Assembly: GCF_036010325.1 (NCBI RefSeq)
Contig: NZ_CP108549.1
Coordinates: 682,001 to 746,000, forward strand
Source of the DNA: Streptomyces sp. NBC_01210
Lineage (GTDB): Bacteria; Actinomycetota; Actinomycetes; Streptomycetales; Streptomycetaceae
Length of the DNA: 64,000 nucleotides
Reading direction: 5' to 3'
Under the pieces are notes generated by a model. It was not told the DNA's origin. It searched no databases and saw nothing but the letters and a program-made list of their open reading frames with translations. How positions within the stretch are numbered: the stretch's first letter is position 1; every line of letters starts with the position of its first letter. Below are positions 35,787 through 50,822 of this stretch, one piece after another. The translations under genes were made by a program, and so were the position numbers.

Positions 35787-35790
35787 GGCC

Positions 35791-36333
35791 TCAACGCCGC
35801 GCGTGGCGTATCTTCAACCGTCCGAACCCCATGGCCCCGGAGATCCGGATCCTCGGCCCGCCGGGGCGGGGGCGCCTCCGGGTCTTGTAGTGCGGGTCCT
35901 TCCACACCGTGCGCAGACCCTCGGCGTCGACGATCGCGTCGCGAGGCACCGTGATCTTGGCCCTGCCGGTGCCCAGTTGCAACTCGATGTCGACTACCGG
36001 ATGCTCAATGACCGCCCGGGACAGGTCCAGGTGCACCCTTCCGAAGGCGGACTCGACCTTGAGGATCCGAGGTACCCGCCATGCGCCGCGCCGCTGGATC
36101 CGTCCGCTCTGGGCGGCAATCGTGGACGTGGCGCCCGCATTCTCCTCCGGGAGCGAGGCCAGAGCCGACACGAGCTCGCTGTGCGTCTTGGCGGTGAGCA
36201 CCTGGTGGAGGCATTCGTCCATCTCCTCGTGCGAGATGTGCCCTTCGGCGTACGCCTCCTGCAGGCGCTGCACGGCCGTGTCACGGTCGTCTTCGCCGAT
36301 CAGCGGCGAGGGGTCTTCCGACAAGGGGGTCAC
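35791..36333 (-). CDS. DUF1707 domain protein with LiaF-like C-terminus
   Basis: A 180-residue protein. Its N-terminal half holds the DUF1707/SHOCT-like helix pair (RDTAVQRLQEAYAEGHISHEEMDE), common in actinobacteria. The C-terminal half (ESAFGRVHLDLSRAVIEHPVV and GTGRAKITVPRD) resembles the beta-strand repeats of cell-envelope stress-response proteins. No membrane segment is visible. I use GTG 36333, since the longer open frame upstream lacks coding character. The 284-bp stretch to the next gene (36334-36617) contains no gene that I can support. Confidence 0.8.
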   Translation of the reverse strand: MTPLSEDPSPLIGEDDRDTAVQRLQEAYAEGHISHEEMDECLHQVLTAKTHSELVSALASLPEENAGATSTIAAQSGRIQRRGAWRVPRILKVESAFGRVHLDLSRAVIEHPVVDIELQLGTGRAKITVPRDAIVDAEGLRTVWKDPHYKTRRRPRPGGPRIRISGAMGFGRLKIRHARR

Positions 36334-36617
36334 CGTTTCACTGTAGTGCCGTGCGGCAGTGCCGTCCCGTCTCAACATCCGCCCGGAACAAGGCGATCGG
36401 TGGCGGCCGCCGCCGAGTGTGGAGCAGCGACGGCCGCCCTGTGGGACCCGGCCGTCATCGCCCCGGGCAGGGCTGGACGGCGTCCAGGCCGGTGCGCTGG
36501 ATGTCCTGACCGACGAGCAGACGGCGCAGTGGAAGGCACCGGCTCGGCAAGGACCCCGCGGCCCTGTATCCGCAATCGGCCGCGCACCACCGCGCCGCCA
36601 AGCCGTGAGCCCTTCTG

Positions 36618-37829
36618 TCAGGCGTCCGGACGTTCGCTGAGCATGAACTCCTCCGCCACGCGCAGCAGCGAATCGTCCGCGGTGAACAGCGAGATGTGGT
36701 CGCCGTGCGGCTCCACCCTGAGCTGCCCATGGGGCAGGCCGCCGGCCACTCGCTTCGACCCCTCGGGGTGGGCGATGTCGTCGTCCCGGCTCGTGACCAC
36801 GAGGGTGGGCGGTCCCACCTTCGCGAGGTAGGGCTCCACATCGGCGCCGGTGATCTCGAGGTTGAGCCGGCAGTACCGGTACAGCAGTTCGGCACTGGCG
36901 TAGGGGTACAGCACGAGGTGCGCCACGTCGGCGGGTGTACTGGTGAGTATCGCATGGCAGAACGCGGCGTGCACGGCCTGCGCGGCGGTCCTGCTGCGCG
37001 CCGCCGCGGTCATGAGCTCGATCAGTCCCTGCTGGTGCGTCGTCTTCGGGTAATCCTCGGCGAACCCGTAGGCGCCGTGCCACAGGCTGAGCGAGCGCAT
37101 TCTCGACGGCTGCTCGGCCGCGGCAACCAGTGCGATCGCCGCGCCTCCGCACAGCCCGATCACGTGCGCGTCCACCGCGTCGTCATGGTCCATCACCGCG
37201 AACAGGTCGGCCGCCTGAGAACGGATGTCCGTCGGGTACTCGTTGCCGTCACCGGCGATGCCGAACAGCCCTCGGCTCTCCCAAGTGAGCACCCGACGGT
37301 CGCGGGCGAAGAACCGCACCCAGTTCTCCGCGAGGGCGGCCGGCATGCCGCAGGCGGGAACCAGGACCACCGTCTCCTCGCCCTCGCCCGCCGCGTACAC
37401 GTTCAGCGGCGTGCCGTCCGACGAGGTGACGGTCTCCCTGGGAGCGTACGCCTCGAAGGTGTCCGCCAGGACGTCGGCGACCACCCGGTCCACCTCGGCG
37501 AGTCGGTCCACCGGCACCACTCCCACGGAGTCCAACACATCGGCGAGTGCCAGGCGTTCACTCACCACCCGTTCGAACACCTGCAGATCGTGGAAGCCCT
37601 CCTCGCCGGAGAGGACCAGTCCGGTCACTCCGGCCCTGCGGGCGACCCTGTCAAGCAGCGCCCGCAGGGCGCGCCACTGGCCAGGGGCCAGGTCGCCGGA
37701 GGAGGCGACCGCGCTGCGGGCGACCGGAACCACGCGCACCGGCGCGGCCATCCCCTCAACGAGCGGTTTCACCGACAGCACGGCCCCGACCAGGCAGGCC
37801 ACCGCCGTTCTCGTTTCCGCTCCCAGCAT
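36618..37829 (-). CDS. SyrC/CmaE-like aminoacyltransferase (Cys alpha/beta hydrolase)
   Basis: A 403-residue protein: an N-terminal region of about 130 residues, then an alpha/beta-hydrolase domain. The nucleophile elbow reads HVIGLCGGAAIAL, so the expected Ser is Cys227; the acid and base candidates are the Asp of SRDDDIA and the His of PHGDHISLF. Enzymes with this Cys, such as SyrC in syringomycin and CmaE in coronamic acid biosynthesis, carry an aminoacyl group from one carrier protein to another rather than hydrolyse it. Here the donor should be the carrier at 38822 loaded with chlorothreonine. A GAGGAGG site precedes ATG 37829. It is the last gene of the minus-strand cluster. Confidence 0.8.
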   Translation of the reverse strand: MLGAETRTAVACLVGAVLSVKPLVEGMAAPVRVVPVARSAVASSGDLAPGQWRALRALLDRVARRAGVTGLVLSGEEGFHDLQVFERVVSERLALADVLDSVGVVPVDRLAEVDRVVADVLADTFEAYAPRETVTSSDGTPLNVYAAGEGEETVVLVPACGMPAALAENWVRFFARDRRVLTWESRGLFGIAGDGNEYPTDIRSQAADLFAVMDHDDAVDAHVIGLCGGAAIALVAAAEQPSRMRSLSLWHGAYGFAEDYPKTTHQQGLIELMTAAARSRTAAQAVHAAFCHAILTSTPADVAHLVLYPYASAELLYRYCRLNLEITGADVEPYLAKVGPPTLVVTSRDDDIAHPEGSKRVAGGLPHGQLRVEPHGDHISLFTADDSLLRVAEEFMLSERPDA

Positions 37830-37856
37830 GCGATCGCCTCCTCAGGCGGACGGGCG

Positions 37857-38804
37857 TCACCGCTTGGGGAACGCGTGCCCCTTGGTCGTCCGGCTGACCC
37901 GCCGGTTGTGGGTGTACGTGTCGGTGCCCGAGACCAGGACCGTGCCGTACTCGCTCAGGCTCACCCGGCCGCCGTACTCGTCGACTTCGTCGGTGTCCGG
38001 GTACACCGCCACCGACGTCGGCACGTACCGGCCGGCGAAACCGAGCCGCATCTCCTTGTCGGGCGCGGAGTGCGGCTTGGAGGCGTGCATCATCGTGGAC
38101 CAGAACATGACCGCCTCGCCGGGGCGCATCACCATGGAGACCGCCCGCTCCTGCGGAGGGCGCCAGTTGGGGTCCTTCTGCAACTGGCGGTAGTCGTAGC
38201 CGTAGAAGCCCCGGGCGACCCCTTGCTTGTCCTGCTGGTTGATCTTGCCCGGCTGGTAGTGCATCTCCTTGGACTCGTCGTAGTGCATGGTGCTTTGGGT
38301 ACCGGGGATGAACTGCAGGCAGCCGGTCTCCTCAGTGGCTTCGGTGAACGCCGTCCACACGGTGATGGTGCCGCCGAAGTCCTTCTCCGACTTCGGCCAC
38401 ACGATCTGCGGCTTGCCCGAGGCGAAGGCGAAGGTGTCCGCCTGGTGCCAGTCGGTGCCCTCGTCACCCGGGTACTTCGGGAAGAACTCCGAGCGCCAGC
38501 ACAGCACGTTCGGCCCGAGCACCCCGGCCACCCGGTCCACGATCTCCGGCCGGCATATGTGGTCGGCCAGGAAGGCGGAGTCGAGGTGCCGGTCGTAGTT
38601 CGCGATGTTGGTGTTGCCGGCCTGGGCGTCGCCCTCGTCGTAGACGGCGCCGCTGCGGTCCATCAACCGCAGCCGCTCACGCCGCCACAGCCGCCGCATC
38701 TCGTCCTCTTCGTAGACCTTGAACGGGCCCAGGTAGCCGCGTTCGTGGAACTGGGCGACCTCTTCCGGGGTCGGCGTGAAGGTCTGCTGAACCACATTCG
38801 TCAT
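37857..38804 (-). CDS. SyrB2-type non-heme Fe(II)/2-oxoglutarate halogenase
   Basis: A 315-residue protein, about the length of SyrB2 (310), with matching landmarks: [68 protein letters not shown] and [11 protein letters not shown]. The iron site reads TDWHQADTF: His120, Gln121, Ala122, with the second His at His240. In ordinary 2-oxoglutarate hydroxylases the third residue is Asp or Glu; Ala leaves room for a chloride on iron and is the signature of the halogenase group. The likely substrate is L-threonine held on the carrier protein encoded next. AGGAGG precedes ATG 38804; the gap to the carrier gene is 17 bp. Confidence 0.92.
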
Positions 38805-38821
38805 CGTGAAGTCCTCCTGCG

Positions 38822-39082
38822 TCAGTGGTCTTTGGCGGCGGTCTGTGTGTCGACGAGCGCGGACAGCGCTTCGATGCTGACCTCCTCCAGTTCCGCGACA
38901 TCGAGCGTGATGTCGTACTTCTCGTTGAGCTGGGCGACGATGCGGATAAAGGCCAGCGAGGTAATCCCCTGGTCGAACAGGTCGACGGCGGGATCGACGG
39001 CGTCCCATCCCAGCACCGCGTGGACGGTGTCCTCCACCGACCTGCGGATTCCTGTCGCGGGCGCATCGGGCGACACGGTCAT
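38822..39082 (-). CDS. Stand-alone peptidyl carrier (thiolation) protein
   Basis: An 86-residue acyl/peptidyl carrier. The phosphopantetheine site is Ser42 in [15 protein letters not shown], and the flanking helices ([13 protein letters not shown] and [14 protein letters not shown]) fit the four-helix carrier fold. In syringomycin the T domain is fused to the Thr-activating A domain (SyrB1); here it is a separate protein between the A-domain gene (27-bp gap) and the halogenase gene. It would hold L-threonine as a thioester while it is chlorinated. An AAAGGAG site precedes the ATG at 39082. Confidence 0.92.
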
Positions 39083-39109
39083 GACGTCGGCTCCTTTCCA
39101 CCGATGGAT

Positions 39110-40678
39110 TCATTTGCCAAGCGCATTGCGGTTCACCTTTCCTTGCAGGGTCATGGGGAACTCCGGGACGACCTCGTAGCGGGACGGCCTCAGGTGTCTG
39201 GGCAGCTCGTTCCTTGCGTGCTGTTCCGCCGCCGCGATGAGCCGGGACGCCTCCCGCCTGTCCGGGTCGACCGGGCGCACGGGCAGCAGATAGGCGACCA
39301 GACGCACGTCGCCGTCCCCGAAGTCGCGGGGCGCGGCGACAGCCCGCGCGACGTCCGGCAGGCGGGCGAGGCATTCCTCGATCTCGCCGGGTTCGATCCG
39401 GTACCCCCGGATCTTCAACTGGTCGTCCGTCCGGCCGAGGTAGAACAGGTCGTCGGCCAGCCGCACCGCGCGGTCGCCTGTGCGATAGAGGCGTTCCTCG
39501 TCCATCCCGGCCATCGCGGGCACGAACCGTTCCGCGGTGAGTTGGGGCCGGTTCAGGTAGCCGCGGGCGAGCCCTGCACCGGCGACGTGCATCTCTCCCG
39601 GCTCGCCGTCCGGCAGCGGTTTGCCGTGCTCGTCGAGCACATACAGGCGCAGGTCGGGCAGCGGCACACCGATCGGGCTCGTTCCGTCGCCGTGGGCGAC
39701 GTCCGCCGCGGTGATCCGACGGTACGTGCAGTGCACGGTGGTCTCGGTGATGCCGTACATGTTCACCAGTTCGGGCGTGCGGTCGCCGTGCCGGCTGAGC
39801 CAGGGGCCGAGCATCCGCGGGTCCAACCGCTCCCCGCCGAAGATGATCAGCCGCAGGGAGAGGCCCTCCGTGCCCGGAGCGCCGCTGCGGAGGGAGAAGA
39901 GCACGCTGAGCAACTGGTGGAAGGCCGAGGGGGTTTGGTTCAGTACGGTCACCCGCTCCGCGCGCAGCAGCGAGACCAGGTACTCGGGCGAGCGGGAGAC
40001 GGTCTCCGGCAGGAGTACCAGCCGCCCGCCGTGCAGGAGGGCGCCCCAGATCTCCCAGACCGAGAAGTCGAAGCTGATGGAGTGGAACAGCGACCAGGTG
40101 TCGCGGTGGTCGAAGTGGAACCAGGAGCGGGTCTGCTCGAAGAGCCGCACGACGTTGCGGTGTTCGACGGTCACCCCCTTCGGCGCCCCGGTGGAACCGG
40201 AGGTGTAGATGACGTACGCCAGGTCGCTCCCCGATGGCTCGCTCCGCTCCCCCTCCGGCACGGGCACCGCCGAAGTGGGCTGGGCGGAGGCTTCGGTCCC
40301 GTCGACCCACACGATGGCGGGGTGGCGTCCGCGCAGCACTTCCGCGGTGTCCGCCGCGGCCACCACGATCGGTACCCCGCTGTCGGTGAGCAGGTAGTCG
40401 ATCCGCGCCACCGGATATCCCGGGTCGATCGGCACGTACGCGCCACCGGCCTTGAGGATGCCCAGCATGGCGACGATGGCTTCCGCGCCCCGGCGCTCGC
40501 ACAGCCCGACGAGGACGCCCGGCCGGACGCCGAGCCCGGCCAACCGTCCGGCCAACCGGTCGCTCCGCGCGGCGAGTTCGCCGTACGACACCGGTCCCTC
40601 CGGGGTGGAGAGGGCTATCCGGTCGGGTGCTGCTCGGACACGTTCGGAGAAAATTGTGTGGAGGCATTCCACCGGCAT
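39110..40678 (-). CDS. Threonine-activating NRPS adenylation protein
   Basis: A 522-residue free-standing A domain. Core motifs: [16 protein letters not shown] (A3), FDFSVWEIW (A4), [14 protein letters not shown] (A5), [36 protein letters not shown] (A7-A8, in pieces) and GKVNRNAL (A10). Aligned to GrsA-PheA, the substrate-pocket residues are D204, F205, W208, N247, I279, G281, M307, V315, H316 and K514, which spells the standard threonine code without a mismatch. It should load Thr on the carrier at 38822. Start ATG 40678; a StrR-like operator lies about 125 bp upstream. It is the first gene of a four-gene unit. Confidence 0.93.
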
Positions 40679-40802
40679 CACGCAGTCCGTTCGTATGGCA
40701 TGAGAGCGACGAATGGCGACCAACCTCGAGAGCGGGTCGAGAATCGCGGAATAACCAGATGCTAGCTGCAGGGAACCGGGATACAGAAGGCCGATGGGGG
40801 GT

Positions 40803-40831
40803 GTCCAACCGCCACACTTCCGCATTTGGAC
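40803..40831. promoter_or_regulatory. Putative StrR-type operator upstream of the A-domain gene
   Basis: Two 9-bp inverted half-sites, GTCCAACCG (40803-40811) and CATTTGGAC (40823-40831), are separated by exactly 11 bp. The StrR consensus has the same geometry (GTTCRACTG, 11 bp, inverted) and each half here agrees at 7 of 9 positions. It lies in the 160-bp gap between the StrR-like gene and the A-domain gene. It could alternatively be a weak terminator stem, but the spacing argues for a protein site. Confidence 0.55.
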
Positions 40832-40838
40832 GGCAGGA

Positions 40839-41786
40839 TTACTCAGCCAGGGAAGAATTCCGCGCCATGCGCGCGGCGACCTCGGCCCACATTCGCGCCG
40901 ATTCCCGTGCCGCCTGCTCCACCAACTGGGCGCAGTGCAGGGGCACGTTGTCGACGGTCTTCTGCCACTCCTCGGCCGTCATCGCCTGCGTACGCAGGAT
41001 GCGGAGCAGCACGCGGCCGGTGTCGGTCTGCCGGACCGCGGGGTCCGACGCCAGCCGCCGCAGGACAGCATCTAGCTCATTTGGCGCCCAATCTTCCTCT
41101 TGACGTGGGGGTTTGAGGGTGCGCGCGGGCGCCGGACGGCGCCCGTAGAGCAGCCGGTTGCGGACCGCCCGCACGGTCTCCGGCGATATCCCCGCGACCT
41201 GGGCCACCTGCCGCAGGGACAGGTCCGGATTCTCGGTCAGCAGCGCGGTCGCGAGGCTCCGCCGCCGCGCGGCGTCGACCGGCCGGGCTCGGCCGTCCTG
41301 TCCGATACGGACTCCGGACGGCTCGGATTCCGCACTCCTGCGACGTATTTCCGCGATGGTTCGGGCGGAAATTCCGGCGGCTGTCGAAATCATCCGGTCC
41401 GACCATTGCGGGTGTGTGGCGACAATGCGTTCGGCGGCCGAGATCCGGTCCTTCAACGACAGCGGAAGCCCGTGTCTGACATTCGCCTGAACGGCCAGCA
41501 CGAAGGCGTCCTCCGCACTGCCGTCGAAAAAGCGTGCCCTGATGCGCTTCTTCTCGCTCAGCCGTGCGGCGCGTACGCGGTGCGCTCCGTCGATCACCCG
41601 CATGGTCGCGCGGTGCACGATGATCGGCGGCAGCTCCTGGTCGACGGCGACCAACGACCGTACGTGCTCCTCGTCTTCGCCCGACGCGCGCGGGGAGCCC
41701 TCGATCACGAGCTCGGCGACCGGGAGGTGCACGACCTCGTCGTCGGGGGCCGCCGCGCACCCTCCCGGGTCGGGGCCCTCGCTCAT
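40839..41786 (-). CDS. StrR/NovG-family (ParB-like) pathway-specific regulator
   Basis: A 315-residue regulator with the ParB-like N-terminal domain typical of StrR relatives (LPPIIVHRATMRVIDGAHRVRAARL) and a helix-turn-helix region (MISTAAGISARTIAEIRRRS); a second HTH-like stretch (LSLRQVAQVAGISPETVRAVR) follows. StrR-type proteins activate antibiotic gene clusters by binding GTTC-type inverted repeats, and one such site sits immediately downstream, before the A-domain gene. I use ATG 41786 (MSEGPDPGGC); the longer frame has no protein-like N-terminus. It follows the thioesterase gene by 23 bp. Confidence 0.88.
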   Translation of the reverse strand: MSEGPDPGGCAAAPDDEVVHLPVAELVIEGSPRASGEDEEHVRSLVAVDQELPPIIVHRATMRVIDGAHRVRAARLSEKKRIRARFFDGSAEDAFVLAVQANVRHGLPLSLKDRISAAERIVATHPQWSDRMISTAAGISARTIAEIRRRSAESEPSGVRIGQDGRARPVDAARRRSLATALLTENPDLSLRQVAQVAGISPETVRAVRNRLLYGRRPAPARTLKPPRQEEDWAPNELDAVLRRLASDPAVRQTDTGRVLLRILRTQAMTAEEWQKTVDNVPLHCAQLVEQAARESARMWAEVAARMARNSSLAE

Positions 41787-41809
41787 GCGCTCGCCCCGCG
41801 CATCGGCGG

Positions 41810-42571
41810 TCACGGGGACGGCAGCCGGTCGGCGACCGCGGCGACCAGCGCCGCCTCGTCCTGGACCAGGTAGAAGTGCCCACCCGGGAAGCTCAGGACG
41901 TCGAACCCGCCAGTGGCCAGTTCGCCCCACGAGGCGAGACCGGCGTGGTCGACGTCCGGGTCCTCGACGCCGCCCGTCGCGAGCACCGGTGCGCGCACCG
42001 CGGTGGGGGCGCCCGGCTGGTAGATCTCGAAGAGCCGGTAGTCGTCGCGGATCATCGGCAGCAGCACCTCGACCAGGTCCGGGTTGGCCAGCAAGGCCGC
42101 GAACGACTCGTTGTCGCGGGCGACCTCGGCGGCGAACTCGGCGTCCGGGAGCTTGTGCACCTCGCCAGGCTGCTTGCGGTGCGGAGCGGTGACACCGGAG
42201 ACGACGAGGAGGTCGACGACCGGACCATGCCGACGTTCCAGTTCGGCGGCGACCTCGTAGGCGACGTAGGCACCCATGCTGTGCCCGAAGATCACCAATG
42301 GCTCGCCGGTGAATGGCTCGACCGCCGACGCGATCTCCTCGGCCATGTCATCGATCCCGCCCGCGGGAGGCTCGCCGAAGCGGTCCTGCCGGCCGGGGTA
42401 CTGCGCCGCGTACACGCCCGTGTCCGGCGGCAGGAACGCGGGCCACGAGCTGTATGTGTTCGCGGTGCCGCCGGCGTGGGGCAGGCAGACGAGCCGTCGG
42501 CGGGGGTGCGTCACGGCATCGCCGCACGGGCGGAGCCAGAGGTCGGCCCTCGTCGCTTTCCTGGTGTGCAC
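41810..42571 (-). CDS. Type II thioesterase
   Basis: A ~253-residue alpha/beta hydrolase of the type II thioesterase class. The oxyanion region is LVCLPHAGGTANTYSSW, the nucleophile motif GHSMGAYVAYEV (Ser), and the catalytic His is in FPGGHFYLVQD. Such enzymes clear wrongly loaded carrier proteins, or here could release the finished amino acid from the carrier. I use GTG 42571 because a GAGGGAGA site lies just before it; ATG 42586, which overlaps the stop of the S9 peptidase gene (ATGA), is also possible and would couple translation. Confidence 0.88.
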   Translation of the reverse strand: MHTRKATRADLWLRPCGDAVTHPRRRLVCLPHAGGTANTYSSWPAFLPPDTGVYAAQYPGRQDRFGEPPAGGIDDMAEEIASAVEPFTGEPLVIFGHSMGAYVAYEVAAELERRHGPVVDLLVVSGVTAPHRKQPGEVHKLPDAEFAAEVARDNESFAALLANPDLVEVLLPMIRDDYRLFEIYQPGAPTAVRAPVLATGGVEDPDVDHAGLASWGELATGGFDVLSFPGGHFYLVQDEAALVAAVADRLPSP

Positions 42572-42582
42572 GGGTCTCCCTC

Positions 42583-44874
42583 TCATCCGAACAGGCCGGC
42601 GATCGCTTCCGCGTCCATCGGGACGGGGGTGAGCCGGTACCCCTGTGGCGGTTCGGCGCCCCTCACGTGGCGGACCAGGAAGTCCCACCGACGCCGGTTG
42701 AGATAGTGGTCGTAACCGACGAAGGCGTGGTCGGAGCTGGGCACGACGAGCAGTTCGAAGTCCTTGTCCGCCGCGATCAGGCGCTCCACCAGGCGCATCG
42801 TCAGATGCGGCGCGAAGCTGTCGTCGAGGCCGCCGTGGACCAGCAGCAGCTTGCCGTCGAGCCGGTGCGCGATGTCGACGTTCGAGGCGGCGGCGTACTT
42901 CTCCGCGTCGAACGGGCCGTTGTACATCTCCGCGACGCCCTGCTCGGCACAGCGCAGGTCGTGCACCCCGCACTCGGCGACGCCCGCCTTGAACACCTCG
43001 GGGAAGTCCAGCATCGCCCGGACGGTGGCGAACCCGCCGGAGGACATCCCGAACACCCCGACCCGGTCGAGGTCCATCCACGGGCGGCTGCGACTCAGCT
43101 CACGCAGAGCCGCCACGTGATCGGCGAGGCCGGCCGCGTCCCCGAGCCTTCCGTAGGAGTGGTCGTGGAACGCCTTGTCCCGCCCCGGCGCACCGCGCCC
43201 GTCGATGGCGACCACGACGAAGCCCAGCGCAGCCAGGGCCTCGGCGTCGTAGCCGTAATAGCCGGGGTCGAAGCAGGGCACGACGCGGGTGGCGCTCGGG
43301 AAGCCGTACGGGTGGTCCACGACCGGGTACCGTTCATCCGGATCGAAGCCGTGCGGAAGGTAGAGCATCCCGTGGATCTCGGTCTCTCCGTCCGCCGCCG
43401 TCACCCGGAACCGCTCCGGCGGGTTCCACCCCGTCGCGCGCAGCCGCGACGCGTCCGTGCGCTCCAACGCGACGCGTTCGCGCCCGTCCCAGCCGCGCAC
43501 GGTGATCACTGGCGGGGCCGCGTTGGTCGAGGCCGAGTCGATGAAGTGGTCCCCGCCCGGCGCCACCGTCACGACGTGGTCCAGGTCGTCGTCGGTGACC
43601 GTGGCGAAGCCCGTACCGTCCAAGCCCGCCCGGCAGACCGTCCGGCGGTAGGGGTCGTCCTCGACCAGACCGGCGGCCAGAAAGTAGACCACACGCCGCT
43701 CCTCGTCGACGTGCAGGACTTCCTGTACCGCCCACTGCCCCGACGTGACCTGTGCACGCAGTTCGCCGTCCCGCGTCCCGTAGAGGTACAGGTGACCCCA
43801 GTTGTCTCGCTGGGAGTACCACAGCACCTCCGCCCCGCCGGAGAGGACCTTGACCATCGGTGCCTGCCCGAGCAGTTGGGCCGGCTCCACCCGGGTCGGC
43901 CCCGATTCGTTCAGGACCGTGCGGACCTCGCCGGATGTCGGGTCCAGCCGGTGCAGGCTGAGCGTCTTCATGTCGCGCGTGGAACTCAGGTAGTACGCCG
44001 CCGAGCCGTCCTCGGCCCACCATGCCCAGCGGCGGGAGATCGGTGACATCATCGGCATCGCCACCGGTTCGGCCAGCGCAGGTACCGCCTTGCCGGATTC
44101 GACGTCCAGCACGACGAACTCGGCCAGCGGCATCCGCTCGTCGCCGGGGTGGGCGAACCGCTGGGACCGCAGCATGGGCGGCCCGCCGTCCGCCGGCAGG
44201 GCATCGACGAGGTGCGTCTCGCGGACACCGCGCATGTCGGTCCGGTGAGTGAGTACGCGCCTGGAGTCCGGCGACCACAGCACCGCGGGCGGCAGGTGCG
44301 GGATGCCGAGCTTGCCCAGCAGCGTCGAGTACATGAAGTAGTCCGGGTTGGCGCCGTAGTCACGGTCCACCGAGCCGTCGTCGGTCAGCGCCCACTCCCG
44401 CCGGTCCGCCAGCGATCGGGCCCTGATGTTGTACGCCTGCCGGAACACCGCGTGGCGGCCGTCCTGCGCGACGACGTCGAGGAGTTCGCGGGGCGGCGCT
44501 CCCTCGACGGCGACGCAGGTGTAGTCGTCCAGCGCGCATCGCCAGCGGGCACCGAACGCGTCGAACTCGACCGCCTCACCGGTCACATCGAACGCGCCGA
44601 ACGGCAACTCGGCCGCATCGACCTCGCTGCCTGACGCCGCCGCGAGTGCCGTGGCGAGCCGGGCATGGTCGAAGGCGGGTTTCCGGCTGCCCTTCACGGG
44701 GTCGACGAGGTGGAAGCGGGGGCCGCCCACGGTGTCCGTCGGGTACCAGAAGCGAACCCCGTCCTCGAGCCACCTCGGCCGGACGCTCCCATTGAGCACG
44801 AGCTCGCCCCGGTTGTGCCGCAGCAGCTGCTCCGCGGTCCGGTACGAGGATGCGTCGAGCCTGATCGGGTTCAT
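42583..44874 (-). CDS. S9 family prolyl-oligopeptidase-like peptidase
   Basis: A 763-residue peptidase with the DPP-IV/acylaminoacyl-peptidase layout: an N-terminal beta-propeller, then an alpha/beta-hydrolase domain with Ser611 in FGMSSGGFATV, Asp in GGLDDSFAP and His in SSDHAFVGY. No signal peptide or membrane anchor is visible, so it is cytoplasmic. Members inside biosynthetic clusters can trim a peptide precursor or act in self-resistance. It follows the P450 gene by 24 bp and runs into the thioesterase gene. Its role in the chlorinated-amino-acid pathway is not clear. Confidence 0.88.
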   Translation of the reverse strand: MNPIRLDASSYRTAEQLLRHNRGELVLNGSVRPRWLEDGVRFWYPTDTVGGPRFHLVDPVKGSRKPAFDHARLATALAAASGSEVDAAELPFGAFDVTGEAVEFDAFGARWRCALDDYTCVAVEGAPPRELLDVVAQDGRHAVFRQAYNIRARSLADRREWALTDDGSVDRDYGANPDYFMYSTLLGKLGIPHLPPAVLWSPDSRRVLTHRTDMRGVRETHLVDALPADGGPPMLRSQRFAHPGDERMPLAEFVVLDVESGKAVPALAEPVAMPMMSPISRRWAWWAEDGSAAYYLSSTRDMKTLSLHRLDPTSGEVRTVLNESGPTRVEPAQLLGQAPMVKVLSGGAEVLWYSQRDNWGHLYLYGTRDGELRAQVTSGQWAVQEVLHVDEERRVVYFLAAGLVEDDPYRRTVCRAGLDGTGFATVTDDDLDHVVTVAPGGDHFIDSASTNAAPPVITVRGWDGRERVALERTDASRLRATGWNPPERFRVTAADGETEIHGMLYLPHGFDPDERYPVVDHPYGFPSATRVVPCFDPGYYGYDAEALAALGFVVVAIDGRGAPGRDKAFHDHSYGRLGDAAGLADHVAALRELSRSRPWMDLDRVGVFGMSSGGFATVRAMLDFPEVFKAGVAECGVHDLRCAEQGVAEMYNGPFDAEKYAAASNVDIAHRLDGKLLLVHGGLDDSFAPHLTMRLVERLIAADKDFELLVVPSSDHAFVGYDHYLNRRRWDFLVRHVRGAEPPQGYRLTPVPMDAEAIAGLFG

Positions 44875-44898
44875 CGGGTTGTCCTCCAGAGCAGCCGG

Positions 44899-46092
44899 TC
44901 AGCCGACGACGACGGGAAGCCGGGCCGCACCGTTGAGGTTGGGGTTGGACATGAACGTCGGTGGGCTGTCCGGGTCGCATCGCAGCTCCGGAAAGCGGTC
45001 GAACAGCGCGTTCATCGCAATGCGGCCCTCCCGCCTCGCCAGCGCCGCCCCGATGCAGAAGTGCACACCCCGGCCGAAGGCCAGGTGCGGGTTGTGCCCG
45101 CGGGCGGGGTCGAAGGTGTGCGGATCGGCGAAGACCCGCGCGTCGCGGTTGGCGGTCGCGATCGACAGGCTGACCATTTGGTCCGGCCCGATCCTCACAC
45201 CGCCCACTTCGGTCTCGGTGGTGGTCACCCGCACCATGGACGCGATGGGGCTTACGTAGCGCAGCGACTCCTCCAACAGCGGAGGGACCAGGGACCGGTC
45301 CTGACGGACCCTCCGATCCGCCTCCGGGTGGGCGTCGAGACAGAGAACGGTTCCGCTGAGCAACAGGGTGGTGGTGACGTGGCCCGCGACGAGCATCACG
45401 TTGGCGAAGTTGGCCACCTCGCTCTCGGTCAACCGCTCGCCGTCGACCTCCGCCTCGACGAGCCTGGTGAGCAGGTCCTCCCGCGGATTCGAGCGCCGGT
45501 CCTTGACGTGCCCCCGCAGGTATTCGGTGATGTGGCGCACCTGCTCCATCGCGTACTCCACCTCGTTCTCGACGGTTTCGTCGCGCTCTCCGAGCGAGAA
45601 CTCCGAGGTGCCGCTCATCATTTTGTCGACCCACCCGTTGAGCAAGGCGTGGTCGCTCGCGGGTATGCCGATCAGCTCGGCTATCACGGTGATGGGCAGT
45701 GGGTACGCCAGCTCGGCGATGAGGTCGAAACTCTTCCGGTCGGCCACCTTGGCCAGCAGGTCCTCCACGATGGCGTGGACCCGGGGTTCGAGCTCGTCGA
45801 TCGCGCGGGGGGTGAAGGCGTGCGTGATGAGCTTGCGCAAAGCGGTGTGCCTGGGCGGATCCAGCTGGGTGATGGATCCTTCGTCGAACTCGCGCCGCTG
45901 CGGGATCAACCGTCCGGTGTCCGACGAGAAGACGTGCGGGTTGTTCGCCACGTGCACTGCCTCAACATGGCCGTAGACGTTCCAGATGCCGCTCGCCTCG
46001 TCGAAGACGACTCTCCGGGACGACCTGTCCTCGCCATACATCCAGAAGTATCGCTGTCGGTCCAGGTCCCACTTTTCGGCCAGCGCAGACAT
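44899..46092 (-). CDS. Cytochrome P450
   Basis: A 397-residue bacterial P450. The I-helix reads MLVAGHVTTTLLL (AGxxTT, oxygen activation), the K-helix ExxR is E275-R278 (EESLR), and the heme-ligand loop is AFGRGVHFCIGAALA with Cys346. The N-terminal region (YFWMYGEDR, DEASGIWNVYGHVEA) is like P450s that tailor NRPS or polyketide products, but the substrate cannot be read. It heads the first half of the minus-strand cluster, so hydroxylation of an amino acid or of a released product is possible. A GGGAGTG site precedes ATG 46092. Confidence 0.93.
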   Translation of the reverse strand: MSALAEKWDLDRQRYFWMYGEDRSSRRVVFDEASGIWNVYGHVEAVHVANNPHVFSSDTGRLIPQRREFDEGSITQLDPPRHTALRKLITHAFTPRAIDELEPRVHAIVEDLLAKVADRKSFDLIAELAYPLPITVIAELIGIPASDHALLNGWVDKMMSGTSEFSLGERDETVENEVEYAMEQVRHITEYLRGHVKDRRSNPREDLLTRLVEAEVDGERLTESEVANFANVMLVAGHVTTTLLLSGTVLCLDAHPEADRRVRQDRSLVPPLLEESLRYVSPIASMVRVTTTETEVGGVRIGPDQMVSLSIATANRDARVFADPHTFDPARGHNPHLAFGRGVHFCIGAALARREGRIAMNALFDRFPELRCDPDSPPTFMSNPNLNGAARLPVVVG

Positions 46093-46415
46093 GACACTCC
46101 CGTCATAACTGATTCGTCAACAACAGGCAATCGGAATTCCGGGGATTTCATTCTGTAATTCCCGCACCGGAATTAATACGGGCCGAGTCTTTCAGATGGG
46201 TGTTGCGCCTGTCGACGGTGCGGCAATCGGAGGCGTCCTGTCGCCAGGACACCGAGCAGCCGATGGGCACCGCGCCGAAGCACCGCGGTATCCGGGCGGC
46301 ATTCCGGGCGGACCAGACCGGCCGTCGAGCATCGCAACCCACCGGGTGAGCCTGGAACCCGGCACCCGCTGACCAGGCCTCCGGCCGGCAGACGACCGCC
46401 CGGCCGCCCGGCGCC
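46093..46415. other. Intergenic region between the P450 gene and the RHH regulator
   Basis: No gene is seen in this 323-bp divergent stretch. Its left end is AT-richer than its surroundings (46130-46180) and carries a CGGAATTCCG palindrome at 46132-46141, so it probably holds the promoter of the P450 operon. I could not assign -35 and -10 boxes with confidence. No StrR-type site was found here. Confidence 0.5.
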
Positions 46416-46453
46416 TTGCGATGGCGCCACTAAGGCGCCATACTTGCGCCATG
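46416..46453 (+). promoter_or_regulatory. Leaderless promoter with GGCGCCA operators over the start codon
   Basis: TTGCGA (46416-46421) and CATACT (46439-46444) are separated by 17 bp and lie 6 bp before the ATG at 46451, the geometry of a leaderless Streptomyces transcript; no ribosome site is present. GGCGCCA elements occur at 46423-46429 and 46434-46440, and the 20-bp string GGCGCCATACTTGCGCCATG (46434-46453) covers the -10 box and the start codon. The same string with two changes recurs at 48117-48136. Binding of the encoded regulator here would block its own transcription. Confidence 0.65.
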
Positions 46454-46993
46454 GATCTCACACCCTACGTCGACGGCCTCCACCGAGAACTCCTGGCCTC
46501 CGCGGGGGCCAACGACGGCGACGCCATGGCGCTGGCCGAGCGGCTGACCGCGTCGGTCACGTCCGCGACCCGGCTCACCATGCTGGACGTGCTGTCGGCC
46601 GCGGCGGACGAGATCACCCGGGACCTCGTGCCCGGCTCGGTGGAAGTCCGGCTGCGCGGACGCAACCCCTACTTCGTGGTCACGCCCGCCACCCTCCATG
46701 AACCGCTCGACAACGACTTCGCCCCACCGCAGGACGGTCCCGCGCCGCACGTCGCCCCGGCCCCGGAGGAGGCTCCCCCGAGCGGCACCGAGGGGGCCGT
46801 GGGCCGCATCAATTTCCGCCCGCCCGAGCAGCTCAAGGCCCGCATCGAAGCCGCCGCCGCCAAGGAGGGGCTCTCGCTGAACGCCTACTTGGTCCGCATC
46901 ACCACGGCCGCGCTGGACGCCGACGCCACCCCGTCCCGCTCGGGCCGCCGCGGCTCGGGACCCACGCGCCACTACGTCGGCTGGGTCGGCTGA
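46451..46993 (+). CDS. Ribbon-helix-helix (HicB-like) transcriptional regulator
   Basis: A 180-residue protein. The C-terminal RHH segment (RINFRPPEQLKARIEAAAAKEGLSLNAYLVRITTAAL) has the beta-strand then two-helix pattern of Arc/MetJ/HicB DNA-binding proteins. The N-terminal 80 residues are helical (LHRELLASAG, LTMLDVLSAAADEITRDLV), and an acidic/Pro linker joins them. The start at ATG 46451 coincides with the end of a putative operator and has no ribosome site, so the mRNA is probably leaderless. It precedes a DUF4097 gene and an ABC exporter operon that shares the operator. Confidence 0.88.
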   Translation: MDLTPYVDGLHRELLASAGANDGDAMALAERLTASVTSATRLTMLDVLSAAADEITRDLVPGSVEVRLRGRNPYFVVTPATLHEPLDNDFAPPQDGPAPHVAPAPEEAPPSGTEGAVGRINFRPPEQLKARIEAAAAKEGLSLNAYLVRITTAALDADATPSRSGRRGSGPTRHYVGWVG

Positions 46994-47025
46994 GCGCCAC
47001 CCACCACGAGACAGGACGGCTCACC

Positions 47026-47901
47026 ATGCCCGAGTTCACCACGCCCGAACCCATCACCGTCGCGCTCACCATGAGCAGCGGCAAGGTGTCCATCATCGCC
47101 GGGGACCGGACCGACACAGTCGTGCAGGTCCGGCCGACCGACGAAGCGTCCGCACCCGACGCCAAGGTGGCCGAGCAGACCGAAGTCGACTACACCGCAG
47201 GCCAGTTGCTGATCAAGGCGCCGGACCCGTCCTGGCTGAGCGGCATCATGGGCAACAGCCCCTCGATCGATGTGACGATCGAAGTGCCGGCCGGCTCCAA
47301 CCTGCAAGCCGAACTGACGAAGGTGCAGGTCCATGCCGAAGGCCGCCTCGAGGAGGTCCGCCTCGAGAGCGTTTCGGGCCACATCCGCCTCGACTGCGTG
47401 GGCACGCTCCACGCCGACACCGTCTCCGGACACATCACCGTCGAAGACGTGAGCGGGTACGCCAGCGTCAACGGCGTGTCCGGCAAGGTGCGGGTGCGCA
47501 GGGCCCGGGGCAGCGCCGTCGTCAAGGGCGTCAACGGCGACACCTGGATCGGCGATGCGGGCAGCGACCTGCACCTCAGCGCGGTCGACGGCAACATCTT
47601 CGTGGACAGCGCCGGACCGGGCGTCACGGCCAGGACCTCGAGCGGCAGCATCCGGATCGGCCACCTGAAGGCAGGCGAAGTCGACCTGCTGACCGGCTCG
47701 GGAGAAATCGAGATCGGCATCGGCGAGGGCTCGACGGCCTGGATCGACGCCCGGAGCGCGACCGGGACCGTGCGCAACTCCCTACAGGCCCAGGACGGCC
47801 CCACGCAGCAAGCGGACATGGTCAAGGCGCTGGCCAGGACGCGACACGGCGACATCATGATCCATCGCTCGCAGCGGCCCGGCCCTTCGGAGATCGGCTA
47901 G
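47026..47901 (+). CDS. DUF4097 family beta-helix protein
   Basis: A 291-residue protein of the DUF4097 (putative adhesin) family: repeated short beta-strands of the form VSGHIRLDCVGTLHADTVSGHITVEDVSGYASVNGVSG predict a right-handed beta-helix. No signal peptide or membrane segment is visible, so it is likely cytoplasmic or peripheral. It lies 32 bp after the RHH gene and before the ABC operon. Genes of this type often travel with exporter operons; the function is unknown. The start is ATG 47026. Confidence 0.85.
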   Translation: MPEFTTPEPITVALTMSSGKVSIIAGDRTDTVVQVRPTDEASAPDAKVAEQTEVDYTAGQLLIKAPDPSWLSGIMGNSPSIDVTIEVPAGSNLQAELTKVQVHAEGRLEEVRLESVSGHIRLDCVGTLHADTVSGHITVEDVSGYASVNGVSGKVRVRRARGSAVVKGVNGDTWIGDAGSDLHLSAVDGNIFVDSAGPGVTARTSSGSIRIGHLKAGEVDLLTGSGEIEIGIGEGSTAWIDARSATGTVRNSLQAQDGPTQQADMVKALARTRHGDIMIHRSQRPGPSEIG

Positions 47902-48085
47902 CCGAGGCACCTGGCGCAGTTCCCGTGCCGCCGCGTCATCCGCGCGCGGCGGCCGCCGTCGATCCCCCTGCGCCCCTCGGTCGAACCCCTGGACCGCCTC
48001 GCGTAGGCACCCATCGGCCAGTTCCCTTCGGCCCGGCCGCCAGCTCGGCACACCCTGCGCCAAGCCCCTGACACCCCGCCAATAT

Positions 48086-48136
48086 GGCGCCAAGAGCCTC
48101 GCGCCTTCATTGTCATGGCGCCATGGTTGCGCCATG
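48086..48136. promoter_or_regulatory. GGCGCCA operator region upstream of the ABC operon
   Basis: A GGCGCCA element (48086-48092) and the 20-bp string GGCGCCATGGTTGCGCCATG (48117-48136) lie in the 424-bp gap before the ABC ATPase gene. The 20-bp string matches the RHH-gene site (46434-46453) at 18 of 20 positions, so one regulator probably controls both. Beyond it, an in-frame ATG at 48134 could start a leaderless, 64-residue-longer ATPase. No other gene is seen between 47902 and 48325. Confidence 0.6.
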
Positions 48137-48325
48137 ATGGCGTCAATGAGCGATCACCGCTCATGCCGTCCCGGCGACAGGACGCCCCGTCGCCGCGCGG
48201 AGCGCGAACTCCGGAATCGTCGTCGAAACAAAGACCCGGTCACGCCTCCCGCCCCTTTCGCGGCGCCCGAACCACCCAGCAGAACGCGCCGCGTGCACCA
48301 TTCCATCCTTGAAATGGAGAGAGAT

Positions 48326-49294
48326 ATGGCATCCACCAGTCCACCCGCAATCACGGCCACCGGACTGCGCAAGTCGTACGGTGACAAGCTGGTTCTCGAC
48401 GGAATCGACCTCGAGGTTCCCTCGGGGCGCATCTGGTCGCTCCTGGGACCGAACGGCGCCGGCAAGACGACCCTGGTGCAGATCCTGTCCACGCTCATCC
48501 GGCCGGACGCCGGGACCGTGCGGGTCGCCGGTCACGACCTGCTGCGCGAGCCCGAAGCGGTGCGCCGGGCGATCGGGGTCACCGGGCAGTTCGCGGCGAT
48601 TGACGAGCTGCTCACCGGCGAGGAGAACTTACAGCTGATGTGCCAACTGCACCGGCTGTCCCCACAGGAGAGCCGGCAGCGTACCGCTCAACTGTTGGAG
48701 CGCTTCGAGCTGGCGGGCAAGGATGCGAAGAAGCTCGCCGGCGCCTACTCCGGCGGCATGCGGCGCAAGCTCGACCTGGCGATGACCCTCGTCGGCAGCC
48801 CCCGGATCATCTTCCTCGACGAGCCGACCACCGGTCTCGACCCGCGCAGTCGGCGCACCATGTGGGACATCATCCGGGACCTTGTCGCCGGCGGCGTCAC
48901 GGTCTTCCTCACCACGCAGTACCTGGAAGAGGCGGACGAACTGGCCGACCGGATCGCGGTACTGCACCACGGCAACTTCGTTGCCGAAGGCACACCTGCC
49001 GAGCTCAAGCGCCTCGTCCCCGGCGGCGACATCCGGCTCACCTTCGACACCATGGAGCAACTCACCCTGGCCTCCGAGGCGTTGGGGACCTCGGACATCG
49101 ACGAAGAGGCGTTGAGCCTACGCGTGCCGAGCGAGGGCGACCTGGGCTCGATGCGACGCGTCATCGACAGGCTCGACGGGGTCTCCGTGACGGCATCCAG
49201 CCTGTCGATGCACAGCCCCGACCTCGACGACGTGTTCCTCACCCTGACCTCTCAGCCCGCCACGGACAACGGAAAGCAGGAGGCAGTCCGATGA
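48326..49294 (+). CDS. Daunorubicin-resistance-type ABC transporter ATPase (DrrA-like)
   Basis: A 322-residue ABC ATPase: Walker A GPNGAGKTT, Q-loop region TGQFAAIDELLTGEEN, signature YSGGMRRKLDLAM, Walker B IIFLDEPTTGLD and switch segment LTTQYLEEADELADRIAV. The C-terminal extension is the DrrA-type domain. With the permease downstream it should export a drug-like molecule. Codon 102 (48629-48631) is TTA, which makes its translation depend on the rare bldA tRNA and links it to development or secondary metabolism. ATG 48326 has a GGAGAGAG site; an earlier in-frame ATG at 48134 would add 64 residues. Confidence 0.92.
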   Translation: MASTSPPAITATGLRKSYGDKLVLDGIDLEVPSGRIWSLLGPNGAGKTTLVQILSTLIRPDAGTVRVAGHDLLREPEAVRRAIGVTGQFAAIDELLTGEENLQLMCQLHRLSPQESRQRTAQLLERFELAGKDAKKLAGAYSGGMRRKLDLAMTLVGSPRIIFLDEPTTGLDPRSRRTMWDIIRDLVAGGVTVFLTTQYLEEADELADRIAVLHHGNFVAEGTPAELKRLVPGGDIRLTFDTMEQLTLASEALGTSDIDEEALSLRVPSEGDLGSMRRVIDRLDGVSVTASSLSMHSPDLDDVFLTLTSQPATDNGKQEAVR

Positions 49295-50082
49295 GCACGC
49301 TCTCCCTCGCCCTGCACGACTCCTCCACGATGCTGCGCCGCAACCTGCGGCACGCCACCCGCAACCCGTCGACGCTGCTCGGGTCGGTGGTCATGCCGTG
49401 CGTGCTCCTGCTGTTGTTCGTCTTCGCCTTCGGCGGCACTATGGGCAACGGACTGGGCGGCGCCGCGGAGGGGATCGACTACGTCGACTACCTCGCCCCC
49501 GGTATCTTCCTGCTGGCCCTGACGGTGGGGGCGATGGGCACCTCGATCGCGGTCGCGGTCGACATGACCAAGGGGATCATCAACCGGTTCCGCACCATGG
49601 CCATCTCCCGCGCCTCGGTTCTGACCGGCCACGTCGTGGGCAGTGTGATCCAGTCGATGGTCAGCATGGTCGTGGTCATCGCCATCGCGCTGCTGGTCGG
49701 CTTCCGGCCCACCGCTGGAGTTCTGGGCTGGCTCGGGGCCATCGGCCTGATGGCCCTGGTGAGCTTCGCGCTCACCTGGGTGGCGGTCGGCTTCGGTCTG
49801 CTGGCGAAGACCGTCGACTCGGCGAGCAACATGCCGATGATCCTGCAGGTCCTGCCGTTCCTGTCCAGCACGTTCGTACCGGCCGAGTCGATGGCCTCCG
49901 GTCTCCGTTGGTTCTCCGAGAACGAGCCCTTCACGCCGATCACCGACACGTTGCGCAATCTGCTCCTCGACAGGCCGGTCGGCAACGACTGGATCATCGG
50001 CGTCGCCTGGTGCCTCGGCATCGCGCTGGTCGGATACCTGTGGTCGAGGAAGTTGTACAGGCGCGACCCCAGGAACACCTGA
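49291..50082 (+). CDS. ABC-2 type transporter permease (DrrB-like)
   Basis: A 263-residue membrane protein of the ABC-2/DrrB class with about six hydrophobic segments (for example SVVMPCVLLLLFVFAFGG, LAPGIFLLALTVGAMGTSIAV, SMVVVIAIALLVG and WIIGVAWCLGIALVGYLW). The start ATG at 49291 overlaps the ATPase stop (ATGA), so the two are translationally coupled and form one exporter. The exported substrate is not known; the chlorinated amino-acid cluster next door is one candidate source. Confidence 0.93.
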   Translation: MSTLSLALHDSSTMLRRNLRHATRNPSTLLGSVVMPCVLLLLFVFAFGGTMGNGLGGAAEGIDYVDYLAPGIFLLALTVGAMGTSIAVAVDMTKGIINRFRTMAISRASVLTGHVVGSVIQSMVSMVVVIAIALLVGFRPTAGVLGWLGAIGLMALVSFALTWVAVGFGLLAKTVDSASNMPMILQVLPFLSSTFVPAESMASGLRWFSENEPFTPITDTLRNLLLDRPVGNDWIIGVAWCLGIALVGYLWSRKLYRRDPRNT

Positions 50083-50106
50083 CCGACGCACCACCCCATC
50101 ACTCAC

Positions 50107-50487
50107 GCGAGGAGATCGATCGACGAGCTGAGCGAAGCACTGCTGGCCAGCCGCAGTGCCATCACCGGCGCGGTCAAGCTCCTCGAGGGCTATCGGATGG
50201 CACGGCGAACGCGCGTCGCGGGCGAGCGGGTGGACCGGGTGAGCCTGAACCCGGTGAGTCAGCAGCCACGGCACTTCGACTCCGCCGTACACGAGGAACA
50301 CGCGGCGCTGTTTCGCGAGGGGTTGAGGTTGCTCGCCGATGCCCCGCCGGAGCGTCGTGCGCCCCTGGAGGAGATGATCGCACTGGCCGAATTCCTCGCC
50401 GAGCGCCTGCCCGCACTCCTGGAAGAGTGGCACACGTATCGCGACGAGCTTCGCGCGTCGACGAGTCGGCCCGCTCCGACCGAATAG
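50107..50487 (+). pseudogene. N-terminally truncated MarR/GbsR-like regulator
   Basis: In one frame the sequence reads RSIDELSEALLASRSAITGAV, LLEGYRMARRTRVAGERVDRV and on through a helical tail to 50487. This is the second half of a MarR/GbsR-type winged helix plus its dimerisation helix. The first 40-60 residues (the front of the DNA-binding domain) are missing, and no start codon with a ribosome site precedes the homology. Only a shorter frame from ATG 50197 (96 aa) could be translated. It lies just after the exporter genes. Confidence 0.55.
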
Positions 50488-50561
50488 ACGGCCCCCGTGC
50501 TGGGGGACGCCAGGCCCGGGCCGACCAGCCCAGGGCAAGACCCATGGGAAGAGATTGCGTC

Positions 50562-50822
50562 ATGACCGACTCCGACATGTCCACGCTGCGAGAACGAGCC
50601 GCGAAAGGCGATGCCGACGCGACCGACCAGCTCATCGAGCTCGCTACTGAACAGGGCAACCTCGACAAACTCCGCCGCCTCGCCGACCAAGGCAACAGCA
50701 CAGCCACCGACCAACTCATCGAACTCGCCACTGAACAGGGCAACCTCGACGAACTCCGCCGCCTCGCCGACCAAGGCAACAGCACAGCTGCCGATCAGCT
50801 CATGGAACTGACCTCCGAGTAA
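50562..50822 (+). CDS. Small protein with 28-residue repeats
   Basis: An 86-residue acidic protein made almost entirely of a 28-residue unit (ATDQLIELATEQGNLDKLRR plus LADQGNST) repeated 2.4 times (50619-50702, 50703-50786, partial to 50819). Each unit predicts two short helices like those of TPR/Sel1-type solenoids. The DNA of the first two units is almost identical, so the duplication is recent. A GGGAAGAG site precedes ATG 50562. I know of no function. Confidence 0.7.
   Translation: MTDSDMSTLRERAAKGDADATDQLIELATEQGNLDKLRRLADQGNSTATDQLIELATEQGNLDELRRLADQGNSTAADQLMELTSE

Follow-up and report, generated by a model that had tools for sequence, protein, structure and literature searches.

A split gene set for the predicted activation, halogenation and transfer of threonine in Streptomyces sp. 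NBC_01210, apparently orphaned from its usual nonribosomal peptide synthetase

Four adjacent minus-strand genes at positions 36618–40678 of a 64,000-nucleotide stretch of the genome of Streptomyces sp. NBC_01210 (contig NZ_CP108549.1; the whole stretch is referred to as the window, and coordinates are those of the window) raise the question of what such a set can serve when it stands alone. An original prediction, made from the DNA letters, had read them as a SyrB1/SyrB2/SyrC-type route in which threonine is activated, tethered to a carrier, chlorinated and passed on. All four genes are intact and lie where they had been placed, and we consider it likely that they form a trans-loading unit for (4-chloro)threonine, orphaned in this genome from its usual nonribosomal peptide synthetase (NRPS). 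The gaps among the transferase, halogenase, carrier (T) and adenylation (A) genes are 17–27 bases, and the four genes are therefore read as one operon. Pfam scans covered the named genes of the operon and its neighbourhood, a part of the 64 kb, and the size of the family and structure match scores rules out chance for the four identities, which are as follows.

36618–37829, minus strand: predicted SyrC-like aminoacyltransferase of the alpha/beta-hydrolase type (403 amino acids; Cys227, Asp350, His378; Pfam Abhydrolase_1, 1e-8)
37857–38804, minus strand: non-heme Fe/2-oxoglutarate halogenase of the SyrB2/CytC3/Thr3 type (315 amino acids; Pfam PhyH; TIGR01762)
38822–39082, minus strand: free-standing peptidyl carrier protein (86 amino acids; PP-binding, 4.8e-12; Ser site in GITSL)
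39110–40678, minus strand: free-standing A domain, predicted to take L-Thr (522 amino acids; AMP-binding, 6e-91)

The binding pocket of the A domain, read at positions that we take to follow the GrsA numbering, is DFWNIGMVH, completed by the A10 lysine (DFWNIGMVHK). The top match of the pocket region among solved structures is 5n9w (E = 2.3e-38), with eight of nine aligned pocket positions identical and Ile279 in place of Val as the exception; 5n9w is Thr1 with L-Thr and Thr-AMP (PMC11253843; statements on published systems, here and below, follow excerpts of the cited papers). Aminobutyrate or valine, the substrates of the CytC1 type, were ruled out on two differing pocket positions, where CytC1 (3vnq) has Gly and Phe and the window A domain has Met307 and His316. 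Relatives were compared in a set of halogenase loci, the best 80 of 226 encoding a relative (L010 and L011 come from the same strain and were counted separately), in which 15 loci lack an A domain and 20 lack a transferase within the distance used, some of them at contig ends. All 64 readable pockets upstream of these halogenases conform to DFW[NS][IV]GMVH (65 A domains, that of L050 being cut off). The C-terminal portion of the window A domain, used as a query, gave no matches. Threonine activation, as originally predicted, is well supported by these pocket residues.

The halogenase scores 445.8 bits against the 'chlorinating enzyme' model TIGR01762 (cut-off 226.3), and its best solved relatives are SyrB2 (2fct, E = 1e-137) and CytC3 (3gja, E = 4.2e-126). 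In an alignment of 32 proteins, H120-Q121-A122 and the distal H240 do not vary, and the carboxylate that would be an iron ligand is replaced by Ala122 (HQA instead of HxD), as in SyrB2 and CytC3; the sequence thus supports a halogenase-type iron site, and carrier-dependent chlorination is predicted. The enzyme is the sole match of its kind in this genome. The carrier is a separate open reading frame (ORF) adjoining the halogenase gene, and A and T are accordingly two proteins, as had been noted, in place of the fused SyrB1.

In the transferase, about 130 N-terminal residues precede an alpha/beta-hydrolase domain, whose nucleophile elbow, GLCGG, contains Cys227. All 26 database homologues retain this cysteine, Asp350 and His378, and so do all 60 loci of the set that have a transferase near the halogenase. 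In the structural model (predicted local distance difference test, pLDDT, 87.5), Cys227 lies between strand 221–226 and helix 228–239, the usual position of the nucleophile, and the Foldseek matches listed for the model are mostly named hydrolases or esterases of the alpha/beta-hydrolase fold. The resemblance to Pseudomonas relatives is about 35% over most of the length (L054, 36% over 97%; L060, 35% over 94%). The assignment as a SyrC-like Cys transferase is supported by these sequence and model features.

The separation of A and T is uncommon but known (4/65 of the halogenase loci that have an A domain close by): A and T share one reading frame in 61 of the 80 loci and are split in four, namely those of S. 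natalensis, S. curacoi, Nocardia sp. alder85J and one Melainabacteria contig, and the remaining 15 have no A domain nearby. The same split order is found in the relatives L002, L003 and L004, and an A domain and a transferase are both near the halogenase in 54 of the 80 loci. In five loci (L062, L065, L075, L076 and L079), Pseudomonas A-T proteins carry the carrier motif twice after the A domain. The suggestion that the gene arrangement might be new did not hold, and that first impression is corrected here, as the split layout has been published: in Streptomyces OH-5093, Thr1 activates threonine, the free-standing Thr2 is loaded, Thr3 halogenates and the thioesterase Thr4 offloads 4-chlorothreonine (PMC11253843).

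A destination for the residue is indicated by relatives of the locus. In a survey of 392 genomes of the genus, this one included, the halogenase was matched at E ≤ 1e-100 in 34. The cluster is present in three relatives: S. curacoi (G317; L003), S. natalensis (G392; L002) and a further genome of the same genus (G140). In all three, the genes for a P450, an S9 peptidase, a type II thioesterase, the A domain, the carrier, the halogenase and the transferase are co-located, and ABC transporter genes, a further P450 and a large NRPS adjoin them. The NRPS proteins measure 2,710 and 6,192 amino acids in G140 and 2,715 and 6,346 amino acids in S. natalensis; in S. curacoi this NRPS is broken up over several contig ends, and G140 and S. 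curacoi are 87–89% identical in it. Seven modules are read in G140, in the order probable starter C-A-T, C-A*-T-E, C-A-T, C-A-T-E, C-A-T, C-A-MT-T and C-A-T-TE (C, condensation; A*, degenerate A; E, epimerization; MT, methyltransferase; TE, thioesterase), an order taken from motifs, condensation hits and the best Pfam stretches, with the naming of E and of the starter C presumed. The motif table covers single modules apart from modules 6–7 of S. natalensis and most of those of S. curacoi. In module 2 the A3 and A8 motifs are altered in 3/3 relatives and the A10 Lys is replaced by Glu in G140 and S. curacoi (2/3), whereas all three retain an intact GGESI carrier motif; modules 1 and 3 look normal. 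Given a degenerate A domain and an intact carrier in module 2 beside a Cys transferase, delivery in trans at residue 2 is indicated, and module 2 is likely the place that receives (chloro)threonine in the relatives. The code of module 3, DVFSVAAYA, is one that we take to be piperazate-like, and the other module specificities apart from threonine (piperazate, Gly) are likewise our presumed assignments; an ornithine N-monooxygenase (PF13434) encoded by G140 supports piperazate.

G140 and S. curacoi each have a second halogenase. That of G140 (61% to the window halogenase) closes off the NRPS cluster on its distant side, where it is grouped with a further free-standing A domain and a thioesterase beside an ETF-type flavoprotein gene (C1, ~2896778–2900382; L134:11778–15382); this group looks like a second chlorinated-residue set.

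The proposed route is as follows. The free A domain would adenylate L-Thr and load the free carrier, the iron halogenase would chlorinate the methyl carbon of the carrier-bound threonine, and the Cys transferase would take the aminoacyl group onto Cys227 and hand it to a different carrier. This recipient would, in the relatives, most likely lie in module 2 of the adjacent seven-module, probably piperazate-type NRPS, and carriers bearing a wrong load would be freed by the type II thioesterase. In Streptomyces sp. NBC_01210 the NRPS end of the cluster appears to be missing, which would leave the unit without its usual partner.

The assembly of this genome comprises two contigs of 9.2 Mb in total and is estimated to be 100% complete. 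A genome-wide search gave 21 condensation hits, all of them outside the window, and an orthologous NRPS was found at none of these places: the 25 best matches of the G140 NRPS to the stretches that contain the 21 hits all have at most 46.3% identity, against 87–89% between G140 and S. curacoi. An NRPS partner elsewhere in the genome was therefore rejected, and the partner is missing from this assembly. The second P450 of G140 matches this genome at no more than 44% at full length and at 46% over one 109-residue piece. Two strong PF13434 matches of this genome sit elsewhere, away from the locus, so that gene is uninformative on the missing cluster. The gene set thus looks orphaned from its usual NRPS partner, yet intact. 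The SyrB1/SyrB2/SyrC-type route put forward at the outset stands for the threonine pocket, the halogenase and the transferase and fails here for the fused A-T and the cognate NRPS module; the NRPS linkage in relatives, the NRPS absence here and the wider operon described below lay outside its view.

In the part of the genome's NRPS proteins that was scanned with Pfam, a single module lacking its A core was noticed, in a protein at about 8.31 Mb (C1, ~8.312–8.315 Mb; L146:6915–9776); Pfam shows a Condensation domain there, only the C-terminal subdomain of an A domain, PP-binding and a reductase-type domain. That the unit now serves this C-[no A core]-T-reductase protein is highly improbable, as it lies 7.6 Mb off, two adjoining A-T proteins could supply it, and nothing connects the two loci.

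The span first assigned to the system holds its four genes but is too narrow. Upstream of the A domain, the gaps at the regulator, thioesterase, S9 peptidase and P450 genes are −4 to 160 bases, so the operon appears to run through eight genes from 46092 down to 36618 (P450, S9 peptidase, type II thioesterase, regulator, A, T, halogenase and transferase), all of them intact, and nucleotide similarity to the relatives extends, with gaps, from ~35787 to 50102. The further features of this region are the following.

40839–41813, minus strand: putative DNA-binding regulator (weak helix-turn-helix/TrcR Pfam matches only; ParB/StrR-like by eye)
41810–42571, minus strand: type II thioesterase (Pfam Thioesterase, 1.6e-48, from a scan of the longer frame 41813–43081)
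42583–44874, minus strand: S9/DPPIV-like peptidase (763 amino acids; Peptidase_S9, 6.3e-36; DPPIV_N, 3.7e-35)
44899–46092, minus strand: cytochrome P450, first gene of the operon (397 amino acids; Pfam p450, 1.7e-31)
46421–46993, plus strand: small putative regulator, conserved with the cluster (Pfam HicB, 3.1e-6; 81% in G140, 61% in S. natalensis)
47026–47901, plus strand: DUF4097 protein, conserved with the cluster (Pfam DUF4097, 3.9e-10; 81% in S. curacoi, 53% in S. natalensis)
48110–49294, plus strand: ABC transporter ATPase (ABC_tran, 2.5e-30; 88–89% in G140 and S. curacoi)
49291–50082, plus strand: ABC-2 permease, last gene in common with the relatives (ABC2_membrane, 1.1e-25)
51014–52219, plus strand: DDE-type transposase gene, ~0.9 kb past the end of synteny (DDE_5, 8.6e-37)

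The P450 of the operon is 72–90% and the S9 peptidase 74–86% alike in the three relatives, the type II thioesterase has identities of 86% in S. curacoi, 85% in G140 and 56% in S. natalensis, and the regulator at 40839–41813 has a match of 79% in S. curacoi and 76% in G140; a match to it was looked for in the cluster region of S. natalensis and not found. The further P450 of S. natalensis is only 37–38% like that of the other two relatives. In the I-helix of the operon P450 (45370–45387), the motif is AGHVTT, with Val at a position that is usually acidic. Matches to the S9 peptidase at E ≤ 1e-60 were obtained in 27 of the 392 genomes; among the 20 of 28 matches whose loci were compared, with flanks of ~1.5 kb, a P450 and a type II thioesterase stand beside the peptidase in three (this genome, S. 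curacoi and G140), and the other 17 loci have no such P450 or thioesterase within these flanks.

The shared DNA ends at 50102 against G140, 50083 against S. curacoi and 50087 against S. natalensis, that is, at the end of the ABC permease and before the second P450 of G140 and S. curacoi. A gene piece (50103–50487; ORF 50118–50486), MarR-like by eye only, begins where similarity to the relatives' cluster ends; ORF 50118–50486 had no Pfam match, and of 40 other genomes five gave weak matches to it. A short ORF with near-identical protein repeats (50560–50822) separates the break from the transposase gene. A search for terminal inverted repeats near the transposase gene gave short, weak pairs only, so an insertion sequence with clear ends was rejected as the cause of the break, and the transposase is therefore regarded as a neighbour, not as a proven cause.

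The ratio of nonsynonymous to synonymous substitution rates (dN/dS) of the halogenase is 0.09–0.16 in pairs with the window gene and 0.07–0.15 in other pairs, and that of the transferase is 0.18–0.27 as against 0.16–0.29 in pairs of relatives; from the dN/dS values, constraint is taken to persist on all four genes. Several observations nevertheless weigh against the reading as an orphaned trans-loading unit for (4-chloro)threonine. The values of the A domain (0.19–0.31 in window pairs, 0.16–0.26 in others) and of the carrier (0.32–0.38 and 0.23–0.29) hint at a slight relaxation in the window branch. A DDAH/arginine-deiminase-like gene, which could bear on arginine or ornithine supply, is kept by 3/3 relatives (L132:5920–6798, L136:625–1635 and L138:4959–5849), between regulator and thioesterase in S. 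curacoi and G140 and elsewhere in the region in S. natalensis, and was not found in the window. The loss that we infer would leave the same picture as the acquisition of only a fragment of the cluster. Module 2 of S. natalensis retains the A10 Lys and much of A3, and its A domain could be weakly active. The likeness of the transferase to SyrC is drawn from the description of that protein. In addition, S. tuirus PHM034 makes PM130391, PM130392 and PM140293, acylated seven-residue peptides with piperazates and threonine as the second residue; its authors propose that the threonine is delivered through a separate A-T enzyme together with a hydrolase resembling SyrC, and a halogenase is predicted in the cluster although the three lipopeptides are not halogenated (PMC10609185). 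This case supports the idea of delivery and weakens that of chlorination of the final peptide, and threonine itself may be delivered rather than chlorothreonine. Krisynomycin and actinomycin G were also considered as products and led nowhere.

The unhalogenated PM130391-type lipopeptides would fit an iron enzyme that hydroxylates, or a cryptic chlorination, with an end product carrying unmodified or otherwise modified threonine; this we regard as improbable, and the Ala122 of the HQA site argues against hydroxylation. That a recent rearrangement cut the cluster and left these genes as a remnant without function, not yet decayed, is possible, although the balance is against it. The end of synteny just past the permease, followed by the gene piece and then the transposase gene, would suit such a remnant, as would the missing DDAH-like gene and the slightly higher carrier and A-domain ratios, whereas the eight intact genes and dN/dS values mostly near those of the NRPS-keeping genomes speak against it, with the proviso that recent loss would give the same picture.

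A Thr1–Thr4-like mode in this strain, in which the type II thioesterase hydrolyses chlorothreonine off the carrier and the free amino acid leaves, is held to be rather unlikely. It would agree with the thioesterase in the operon, the adjoining ABC exporter, the intact window genes, the lack of an NRPS among the scanned window genes and of an orthologous one elsewhere in the genome, and the description of Thr4 as a thioesterase (PMC11253843), but the SyrC-like transferase is present and conserved, and the thioesterase and exporter occur equally in the NRPS-keeping relatives, where they would have other uses. A trans-loading unit parted from its NRPS remains the preferred reading, and the broader idea of a movable cassette that outlives its NRPS and that selection retains for some other purpose, such as releasing free chlorothreonine or feeding another A-less module (for instance that of the protein at about 8.31 Mb), is doubtful.

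The locus offers a compact, fully split A/T/halogenase/transferase set whose near relatives indicate a probable destination of the residue. Two questions can thereby be tested: by what means a Cys transferase recognizes a module inside an NRPS, and whether these probably piperazate-containing peptides still carry the chlorine. The orphan state also hints at a way for a unit of this kind to part from its NRPS. What is added here, from the sequences compared, is the larger operon, the apparent orphan state and, in relatives, a degenerate module 2 as the likely recipient; a search of mostly open-access literature found no publication on the operon together with the degenerate module 2.

Among known systems, Thr1–Thr4 shares with the window a separate threonine A domain, carrier and halogenase in Streptomyces and a nearly identical A pocket; the fourth protein there is an offloading thioesterase, whereas the window has a SyrC-like Cys transferase plus a thioesterase, and the relatives of the window set carry an adjoining NRPS (PMC11253843). 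Similarly, CytC1/CytC3 combine a stand-alone A domain and a halogenase in Streptomyces, but the aminobutyrate/valine pocket differs in the two residues given above and CytC3 dichlorinates aminobutyrate (PMC11253843). The PHM034 cluster, likened from its published description, differs in having A and T in one enzyme, according to a PRISM prediction (PMC10609185). The SyrB1/SyrB2/SyrC system resembles the proposed route in threonine activation, on-carrier chlorination and an alpha/beta-hydrolase that shuttles the residue to an NRPS module (PMC8949500). In syringomycin, however, A and T are fused and the recipient is a last module without an A domain, whereas the window has two ORFs, the recipient in its relatives is probably module 2 with its degenerate A domain, and this genome has no cognate A-deficient NRPS module in the cluster and no recipient nearby.

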